Shown: one piece after another, positions 11,529 through 13,192 of the stretch
How positions within the stretch are numbered: position 1 is the first letter of the stretch
How the letters are laid out: each line of letters starts with the position of its first letter
Assembly (NCBI RefSeq): GCF_032818155.1
Contig: NZ_CP102589.1
Coordinates: 668,001-732,000 of the forward strand
DNA from: Niallia taxi
Lineage (GTDB): Bacteria; Bacillota; Bacilli; Bacillales; Cytobacillaceae
Reading direction: 5' to 3'
Length of the DNA stretch: 64,000 nucleotides
Position numbers and translations under genes: made by a program
Notes under the pieces: model-generated
What the model was told of the DNA's origin: nothing
What the model saw: the letters and a program-made list of their open reading frames with translations, nothing else
The model's database searches: none

Positions 11529-11987
11529 ATGGAGCATATTATTAGAACAGCAACTAATGGAGATATAGAGGGCCTTAAAAGCTTTTTAGGGAGAACGGAA
11601 GTCGAATTGCAGGATTTGGAGAATTGGATGGACTTCTGCCTTGTTGCGGAGGATACACATTCAGGAGAATTAATGGGGACAATCGGCATTCAGCCTTTTG
11701 CTGACGCTGGGCTGCTAAGGGCGCTAGTGCTTAAAAATGGATCTGCTGAAGACATTTTGTTTTTGCTTCAACAGGCCATAAGGTTGGCTAAAGAACAAAA
11801 ATTAGGTATGCTATATTGCGTAGTGAATAATAAGAATGCGAGGAATCTCTTCTATTTACTTGGATTTAAGGAGATAAATGTCGAAGATTTGCCTGTGGAT
11901 GTCAGACAATCATCAACAGTAAAGACAGCAGAAGCTGTTAATAACTCGAAAATTATGTATTATTCGATAAACAATGTGGATAATTAG
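11529..11987 (+). CDS. ywlB: GNAT-family acetyltransferase (YwlB-like)
   Basis: This 152-residue protein has the GNAT architecture. An N-terminal strand-helix IIRTATNGDIEGLKSFL leads to the central strands LMGTIGIQPFADAGLLRALVL, and a C-terminal VNNKNARNLFYLLGFKEI is the usual acetyl-CoA-side segment. The usual R/Q-x-x-G-x-G/A pyrophosphate loop is not clearly recognisable. The substrate is unknown. It occupies the ywlB position between spoIIR and ywlC. Its last codons (AAT GTG GAT AAT TAG) contain a perfect DnaA box, the first of the cluster that continues downstream. Confidence 0.85.
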   Translation: MEHIIRTATNGDIEGLKSFLGRTEVELQDLENWMDFCLVAEDTHSGELMGTIGIQPFADAGLLRALVLKNGSAEDILFLLQQAIRLAKEQKLGMLYCVVNNKNARNLFYLLGFKEINVEDLPVDVRQSSTVKTAEAVNNSKIMYYSINNVDN

Positions 11988-12003
11988 GAAGAGTTATCCA
12001 CTG

Positions 12004-12054
12004 TTTTCGTCTTTTTATTCACAATTTGTGGACAAGTCAGATAAAAGACGAAAA
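12004..12054. repeat. 12-bp inverted repeat inside the DnaA-box cluster
   Basis: TTTTCGTCTTTT (12004-12015) and AAAAGACGAAAA (12043-12054) are exact complements. The 27-base interval holds two DnaA boxes. A second inverted repeat, AAATCGCCTG (12054-12063) / CAGGCGATTT (12103-12112), follows immediately and encloses a TGTCGAA motif. Confidence 0.7.
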
Positions 12055-12082
12055 AATCGCCTGGATTTGGTCAAATGAGAAT

Positions 12083-12089
12083 TGTCGAA
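12083..12089 (+). promoter_or_regulatory. Spo0A-box-like site within the DnaA-box cluster
   Basis: TGTCGAA, in the context TTGTCGAAAA, matches the 0A-box core. Spo0A is known to bind near DnaA boxes at B. subtilis oriC. The short motif could occur by chance. Confidence 0.35.
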
Positions 12090-12151
12090 AATTGAAGAAA
12101 CACAGGCGATTTCAATGTATTTACATAAGTTTTAAATAAAGGTGGATAAGT

Positions 12152-13192
12152 ATGAAGACAAATTTATGGTCAGTGGATAAGTATGTGGATATAGATAGTA
12201 GTTATCCACAAATTAAACAGGCTGCAGACCTTTTAAACAAAAATGAAGTAATTGCCTTTCCAACAGAAACAGTTTATGGACTTGGAGGGAATGCGAAAAA
12301 TGATGAAGCCATTGCTAAGATCTTTGCTGCGAAAGGAAGACCATCTGATAACCCGCTCATCATTCATATAGCAAAAAAAGAGCAATTGGCAGAGCTCGTG
12401 AAGGAAGTGCCGGAGAAGGCAGAGCAATTAATGGAAGCCTTTTGGCCAGGAGCACTTACGATTATATTTCAGCTTAAAGAAGGTGCATTATCGAAGCTGG
12501 CAACTGCCGGGCTTAATACTGTCGGCATAAGAATGCCTGACCATCCGGTTGCATTAAAATTATTAGAATTGGCCAATTTACCGATTGCTGCCCCAAGTGC
12601 TAATACATCTGGAAAGCCGAGCCCTACTACTGCGCTTCATGTAAAGGAAGATTTAGATTCAGTTATTGCCGGGATTGTGGATGGCGGTCCGACAGGTGTT
12701 GGTGTTGAATCAACGGTTATTGATTGTACTGATTCTGTTCCTGTGATACTTCGGCCAGGTGGTGTGTCCCATGAGGACATCGAAAAAGTAATCGGGGAAG
12801 TGATGCTAGATAAAGCCCTTGTTAATAAAGATTCCGCACCAAAATCACCTGGCATGAAGTATACACATTATGCACCGAATGCTCCGTTGTATTTAGTGCA
12901 AGCACCGAAGGAAAGAATTCAAGAATTGGTTGCAGAAGAGCGCCGCAATGGCAAAAAGGCAGGAGTGCTTACAACAGAAGAAAACAAAGAGTATTATCAA
13001 GCAGATTATATTTTTGTGTGCGGAAAAAGAGCGGACTTATCCACTGTTGCTGCAAATCTATATGATGGCTTAAGAAGTTTTAATCATAGTGATGTTGATA
13101 TTATTTTCGCAGAGGTATTTCCATATGAAGGGGTAGGACATGCCATCATGAACCGTTTAATGAAAGCAGCCTCTCACCAAGTTATTGATTGA
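12152..13192 (+). CDS. ywlC: L-threonylcarbamoyladenylate synthase (Sua5/YwlC)
   Basis: This 346-residue Sua5-type protein makes threonylcarbamoyl-AMP from threonine, bicarbonate and ATP for the universal t6A37 tRNA modification. The N-terminal YrdC domain (about 20-205) includes FPTETVYGLGGNA, the KGRPSDNPLIIH binding motif and APSANTSGKPSPT. A linker with SPGMKYTHYAP leads to the C-terminal Sua5 domain (about 240-340). Two perfect or near-perfect DnaA boxes fall in its first 20 codons (VDKYVDI and the SYPQIK region), so the N-terminal sequence is partly constrained by the DnaA-box cluster. Confidence 0.95.
   Translation: MKTNLWSVDKYVDIDSSYPQIKQAADLLNKNEVIAFPTETVYGLGGNAKNDEAIAKIFAAKGRPSDNPLIIHIAKKEQLAELVKEVPEKAEQLMEAFWPGALTIIFQLKEGALSKLATAGLNTVGIRMPDHPVALKLLELANLPIAAPSANTSGKPSPTTALHVKEDLDSVIAGIVDGGPTGVGVESTVIDCTDSVPVILRPGGVSHEDIEKVIGEVMLDKALVNKDSAPKSPGMKYTHYAPNAPLYLVQAPKERIQELVAEERRNGKKAGVLTTEENKEYYQADYIFVCGKRADLSTVAANLYDGLRSFNHSDVDIIFAEVFPYEGVGHAIMNRLMKAASHQVID

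Follow-up and report, generated by a model that had tools for sequence, protein, structure and literature searches.

DnaA boxes at the ywlB-ywlC junction of Niallia taxi belong to a cluster that recurs across the class Bacilli

The datA locus of Escherichia coli, which is dependent on IHF, stimulates the hydrolysis of DnaA-ATP. Six clusters of DnaA boxes in Bacillus subtilis, that of ywlC/ywlB among them, were reportedly deleted by Okumura et al. in 2012. The ywlC/ywlB cluster is listed as region 6 in Table 1 of Smith and Grossman 2015 (PMC4447404), the accessible part of which gives nine sites in the ywlC region bound by ATP-DnaA in vitro with a Kd of 0.25 uM. Both this paper and PMC12112137 report ywlC as repressed by DnaA, and in the accessible portion of the latter the activity of PywlC-lacZ drops as DnaA rises. 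As far as their available text goes, reviews disagree on the role of the B. subtilis clusters outside oriC: PMC13220808 describes early initiation upon removal of six clusters, the effect being strong only once every one has been lost, and reads this as pointing to sensitivity to free DnaA, whereas PMC5295017 credits single clusters with little effect and judges the clusters not significant in initiation; PMC11019786 terms them inhibitory (further sources, likewise seen in part, are PMC8203912 and PMC4634966). The clusters matter because B. subtilis, according to the same part of PMC13220808, has no Hda homologues, no IHF and no datA and DARS loci. The preliminary description of the locus studied here was correct in pointing to the known B. 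subtilis ywlC cluster, though it made no mention of the reported repression of ywlC by DnaA, and its statement that this cluster contributes to initiation control is weaker for one cluster than it implied, PMC5295017 standing against PMC13220808 in what could be seen of both.

The window analysed here is a stretch of 64,000 nucleotides from Niallia taxi, in which a motif scan predicts nine DnaA boxes over 11936-12210, three perfect and six with one mismatch (table 1). Eight of them, three perfect and five with one mismatch, had been described before as lying within 236 bp (11975-12210), five pointing left and three right, and all are indeed present in these orientations. The additional one, box 1, is degenerate and lies outside that span, 52 bp ahead of the ywlB stop codon; locus L003 has a perfect box at the same distance. 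Several TTATNCACA boxes thus crowd into a few hundred bp between ywlB and ywlC, far more than background would give, as in clusters of the B. subtilis type, and the cluster resembles that of B. subtilis ywlC/ywlB in occupying the same gene junction outside oriC, with nine sites reported there (PMC4447404, as far as accessible) and nine predicted boxes here. The distance to dnaA is approximately 231 kb, hence the location outside oriC. The name ywlB was assigned from gene order; the family match of the product, to ArsN2 acetyltransferase, is weak, at 37.5 bits where the cut-off is 125. In 52 of the 80 named loci tblastn places a match to it ahead of ywlC. The closest named relative, among the best 80 of 290 loci, is likewise Niallia taxi (98% identical in YwlC). 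Because the TIGR00057 match begins at residue 18, boxes 7 and 8 precede the family region and box 9 straddles its start.

Table 1. Predicted DnaA boxes and flanking genes at the ywlB-ywlC junction (positions in the window).
Feature	Sequence	Position	Strand	Remarks
ywlB orthologue		11529..11987	+	ORF; acetyltransferase-like, 152 aa; boxes 1 and 2 in last codons
box 1	TTATTAACA	11936..11944	-	one mismatch
box 2	TTATCCACA	11975..11983	-	perfect; ywlB codons N-V-D-N, ahead of stop codon
box 3	TTATCCACT	11994..12002	+	one mismatch
box 4	TTATTCACA	12015..12023	+	perfect; convergent pair, left half
box 5	TTGTCCACA	12027..12035	-	one mismatch; convergent pair, right half (3-bp gap)
box 6	TTATCCACC	12141..12149	-	one mismatch; covers likely ywlC ribosome-binding site
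ywlC/tsaC		12152..13192	+	L-threonylcarbamoyladenylate synthase (t6A tRNA modification), 346 aa; TIGR00057, 219.3 bits vs cut-off 123.2
box 7	TTATCCACT	12172..12180	-	one mismatch; +20, ywlC codons 7-10 (S-V-D-K)
box 8	ATATCCACA	12184..12192	-	one mismatch; +32, ywlC codons 11-14 (Y-V-D-I)
box 9	TTATCCACA	12202..12210	+	perfect; +50, ywlC codons 17-20 (S-Y-P-Q)

Two adjacent long inverted repeats, strongly folded, occupy 12004-12112 between the two genes. A structured RNA at the junction was considered on account of the fold (z -4.06), but this reading was dropped because L002 and L003 do not conserve the arms. The motif TTGTCGAA at 12082-12089, which we take to resemble a Spo0A box, lies inside TGTCGAAAA, a sequence common to the loci of the Niallia clade (the window, L001, L002 and L003).

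The perfect box TTATNCACA occurs 270 times in the 5,292,036 bases of the genome (the reversed motif 230 times), i.e. about 3.3 times per 64 kb, so the chance figure of about two given earlier was slightly low. The window itself holds six perfect boxes, and its one-mismatch boxes (91 versus 81 expected) are unusual in their clustering rather than in their number. When the perfect boxes were linked at spacings of at most 300 bp, the 266 that could be mapped by split searches formed seven groups of at least three, with only about 0.02 triples within 250 bp expected genome-wide; the other four boxes are among 104 TTATRCACA places and leave room for a further group nowhere but in contig 3 and close to the end of contig 2. 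The groups comprise five boxes upstream of dnaA (oriC), four at tsaD/gcp, four at C1:3706570, and three each at mnmE/trmE, rlmH/yydA, ywlC and sda/yqeG, with DnaA, TsaD, RlmH, YqeG and YqeH named via curated families and the proteins we take to be MnmE, Sda and Jag named from their ORFs. The many equally dense clusters that would have spoken against a special status of this one were not found in the genome: of the six other groups, five are oriC or orthologues of known clusters. Except for the absence of ywcI/vpr, the sister clusters of B. subtilis are thus present in Niallia taxi too, and its groups are the strong B. subtilis regions of Table 1 in PMC4447404, as far as that source could be seen; the group at C1:3706570 matches none of the clusters named there. 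The rank of the cluster in the genome, together with a sister set matching that of B. subtilis, identifies it as very probably the Niallia orthologue of the DnaA-bound ywlB/ywlC cluster. A strand bias of the perfect boxes, suspected at first, was gone once 266 of the 270 had been mapped. The group at C1:3706570-3706666 (L087:2013-2197) packs four perfect boxes into 97 bp (seven with at most one mismatch) and sits between a gene for a TIGR01777 oxidoreductase and an ORF resembling, by eye, an ATP-grasp protein.

Among the named relatives (the best 80 of 290 YwlC-encoding loci, unevenly related to each other), 77 of 80 have 4-12 boxes with at most one mismatch between -300 and +150 of ywlC, where flanking DNA predicts approximately 0.2-1.6 boxes per 450 bp. 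Zero boxes were found in this span in L075 (Turicibacter) and L079 (Thermoactinomyces), and the incomplete locus L021 has three. Many of the loci share a layout in which an upstream group closes with the convergent pair, TTATNCACA-3-TGTGNATAA, and a second group lies in the coding region, at +20(-), +32(-) and +50(+) of ywlC. The records L008, L012 and L013, titled Pseudomonas, Sporosarcina and Paenibacillus, resemble Cytobacillus loci in their box positions and first ywlC codons, and their names may be wrong or outdated.

A YwlC match is present in each of the 151 genomes sampled from the class, from which 89 loci (30 taken automatically and 59 picked one per genus) were drawn so as to represent all 82 genera, 62 of the 151 genomes being left out. 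With one locus counted per genus, and a genus scored as positive when the stretch from -450 to +100 of ywlC had four or more boxes inside 300 bp, the cluster occurs in 44 of the 82 genera, and 22 of the 40 families have a positive genus. Under the same criterion the reversed motif gave one positive genus and two scrambled motifs none (1/82, 0/82 and 0/82); in flanking DNA four boxes were reached in 2 of 442 tiles of 300 bp and in 1 of 62 regions of 750 bp. Even the exact positions recur among the 44 positive genera: +20(-) in 32, +32(-) in 21 and +50(+) in 27. That 38 of the 82 genera fail the criterion suggests that the cluster is dispensable or has been replaced in many lineages, with L143 and L148, both scored negative, still holding two and three boxes. 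Outside the class, 95 of 97 sampled genomes have a YwlC match, and none of the 28 best-scoring of these has a qualifying cluster; an additional locus from within the class that entered this set, L336, is below the criterion. In our sample the cluster is characteristic of the class, and the earlier view of it as conserved at ywlB-ywlC outside oriC is supported by the comparison of the 82 genera. A cluster that is spread over 22 of 40 families and often occupies set codons in a gene for tRNA modification is evidently under selection. No statement on its conservation across genera was found in the accessible parts of the literature examined, and an earlier report may exist.

The proposal that the boxes have shaped the last codons of ywlB and the first codons of ywlC gains support from codon usage, as a collective effect, since only 20 of 81 loci (the 80 named ones and the window) depart singly at the 5% level from a null model in which synonymous codons are resampled with the protein unchanged. 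In these 81 loci, GTG encodes Val8 in 72 of 75 cases (background 0.32) and Val12 in 64 of 67, and CCA encodes Pro19 in 55 of 56 (background 0.32). The 44 positive genera give the corresponding values of 32/35 (background 0.33), 26/28 and 19/19 (background 0.28). The first 25 ywlC codons hold on average 2.30 boxes (1.36 perfect), while the null model predicts 1.03 (0.20 perfect), and the ywlB tails of 53 loci hold 1.74 boxes against 0.49 expected from the protein, the valine of their V-D being GTG in 55 of 56 cases (background 0.37). The overlap with codons allows an exact test, as synonymous recoding would destroy the boxes with the protein unchanged.

For the relation of the boxes to a promoter, 80 loci (L021 dropped, the window added) were scanned strictly for TTGNNN and TANNNT separated by 16-18 bp within 60 bp of the convergent pair. 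The pair itself was recognised upstream at up to three mismatches in 69 loci (no pair in 11), and a promoter abuts it in 45 of these 69, namely B. atrophaeus and 44 others, with the form TTGAG[AT]-17-TATACT in 30 of them. The -35 element begins exactly 3 bp past the pair in 39 of the 80 loci, which, being unevenly related, do not amount to 39 independent cases. In the class sample, the pair was found in 36 of 82 genera at up to three mismatches and in 31 at up to two, compared with 0 of 297 control stretches at up to two. In the other 24 of the 69 pair-bearing loci, including the window, L001, L002 and L003, the strict scan found no promoter of the phased type, and a promoter search of the window gave weak matches only; boxes phased to a ywlC promoter, as expected of a DnaA operator, are thus not recognisable in Niallia taxi and the 23 other loci. 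Retention of the pair in such loci argues for a role beyond the promoter, unless another promoter, missed by the strict scan, has taken over. For the window, repression of ywlC is hence not arguable from this sequence, and another promoter may serve the gene.

The other B. subtilis-type clusters were compared, by at least four boxes within 300 bp, in 30 genomes of 29 families chosen with knowledge of their ywlC state. The dnaA cluster was found in 27 of the 30 (the three misses being cut by an end), the tsaD cluster in 22 (one miss cut by an end), the ywlC cluster in 20, those of mnmE and rlmH in 15 each and that of yqeG/sda in 8; as the compared genes come from the B. subtilis list, with ywcI/vpr left out, this ranking covers known clusters only. 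The sda/yqeG and trmE clusters resemble that of ywlC in lying near genes reportedly controlled by DnaA in B. subtilis and in having orthologous clusters in Niallia taxi, but they are rarer (8 and 15 versus 20 of 30 genomes). The tsaD cluster is flanked by the 3' ends of two genes, tsaD and one of the ABC-F type. In all nine genomes with dnaA, ywlC and tsaD on a single contig (G000, G001, G013, G033, G034, G050, G058, G140 and G148; circularity was assumed where needed), ywlC and tsaD are on opposite sides of dnaA, with ywlC approximately 0.1-0.65 Mb from it. The same layout in G001 and G148, which do not have the ywlC cluster, means that it may reflect gene order alone.

How might the array work? 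The explanation we favour, with about even chances of being right, is that of a DnaA nucleoprotein site serving two ends, holding DnaA and tuning ywlC. DnaA would bind cooperatively in two blocks, one being the upstream group closing in the convergent pair and the other the -,-,+ triad within the first 20 ywlC codons. The complex would retain DnaA at a site that is replicated early after initiation and, together with the sister clusters, would restrain re-initiation, and it may also repress or tune ywlC, and hence t6A synthesis, according to the DnaA level. Binding and function in Niallia taxi are proposed here from sequence, the evidence for binding coming from B. subtilis (PMC4447404, in the portion available). 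As far as we have seen, its class-wide recurrence, its constant codon positions, its phasing to a promoter and its persistence without that promoter are additions to what is known of this cluster. The locus shares with E. coli datA the nature of a DnaA-box cluster outside oriC with a proposed restraint on initiation, but differs in that datA uses IHF, which is missing from B. subtilis (PMC13220808, as far as accessible).

Either half of this dual role could suffice. That the array is only a DnaA sink near oriC, acting in a datA-like manner with ywlC as an incidental location, is a possibility to which we give limited credence. Such a sink would fit the retention of the pair without a phased promoter in 24 of 69 loci, the window included, the equally wide retention of the tsaD cluster between 3' gene ends (22 of 30 genomes) and the advanced initiation upon loss of the six B. 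subtilis clusters (PMC13220808, seen in part), but the exact 3-bp promoter phasing in 39 of 80 loci and the recurrent use of the same codons of the same gene exceed what a sink needs, and PywlC-lacZ declines with rising DnaA in B. subtilis (PMC12112137, likewise). It is rather unlikely that the array is solely an operator through which DnaA represses ywlC and makes t6A synthesis follow its level, any effects on initiation being incidental: the failure of the strict scan to find a phased-type promoter in the window and 23 further pair-bearing loci speaks against this, as do the nine boxes the window locus still holds, whereas the phasing among relatives, the boxes on the likely ribosome-binding site and early codons, the ywlC repression reported in B. 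subtilis (PMC4447404 and PMC12112137) and the reportedly weak part of single clusters in initiation control (PMC5295017), in the accessible parts of these sources, would all agree with it.

The boxes could, in principle, also have arisen as a side effect of conserving an N-terminal peptide (VDxxVD...YPQ), given that the protein alone predicts 1.03 boxes with at most one mismatch per ywlC start and that W-x-VD is present in a few cluster-less genera (e.g. L113 and L117), which counts against a purely DNA-driven tail and suggests that part of the peptide may predate the boxes. This is made very improbable by the codon bias and by the shortfall of the protein-based prediction, which accounts for fewer than one in two ywlC boxes, roughly one in seven of the perfect ones and fewer than one in three of those in ywlB tails; moreover, the curated family begins only at residue 18, and in five loci a box lies in a different frame or orientation, read L-S-T in L054, L130, L149 and L171 and L-L-T in L144. 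A secondary replication origin, to which the density of boxes might point, is hardly credible. The reverse strand beside box 9 (12188-12210) reads TGTGGATAACTACTATC, which we liken to the DnaA-trio motif, but by eye such a trio-like stretch showed up in the window, L001 and L002 alone, some 231 kb separate the locus from dnaA, and the B. subtilis clusters are called inhibitory in the accessible part of PMC11019786. Chance or an AT-rich composition, finally, has a virtually negligible probability: one-mismatch boxes are indeed common, as the numbers for the window attest, but the genome rank, the control motifs, the flanks and the genomes outside the class refute it.

Of the five clusters outside oriC that were compared, the two most widely kept adjoin genes for t6A synthesis, tsaC (ywlC) and tsaD (gcp), and lie on opposite chromosome arms, while two others adjoin mnmE and rlmH. 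The array overlaps the first tsaC codons and often outlives its promoter. Replication control may thus be tied to translation, a connection for which no counterpart was found in the literature searched. We would speculate, with considerable reserve, that an old circuit of the class Bacilli ties DnaA to t6A modification, the array being a dual-use coding element for initiation timing and translational capacity. The RNA-modification genes tsaD, mnmE, rlmH and tsaC adjoin the clusters at L082:2367-2652, L083:6912-6969, L084:4231-4571 and 11936-12210 of the window, and the sda/yqeG cluster lies ahead of yqeG and of yqeH, the gene for a ribosome-assembly GTPase. Five further boxes (L081:6073-6360) surround the 3' end of a gene for a 23S rRNA uracil methyltransferase of the RlmD/RlmCD family, and region 20 of the B. 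subtilis in vitro set also lies within rlmCD, according to the accessible part of the table in PMC4447404.
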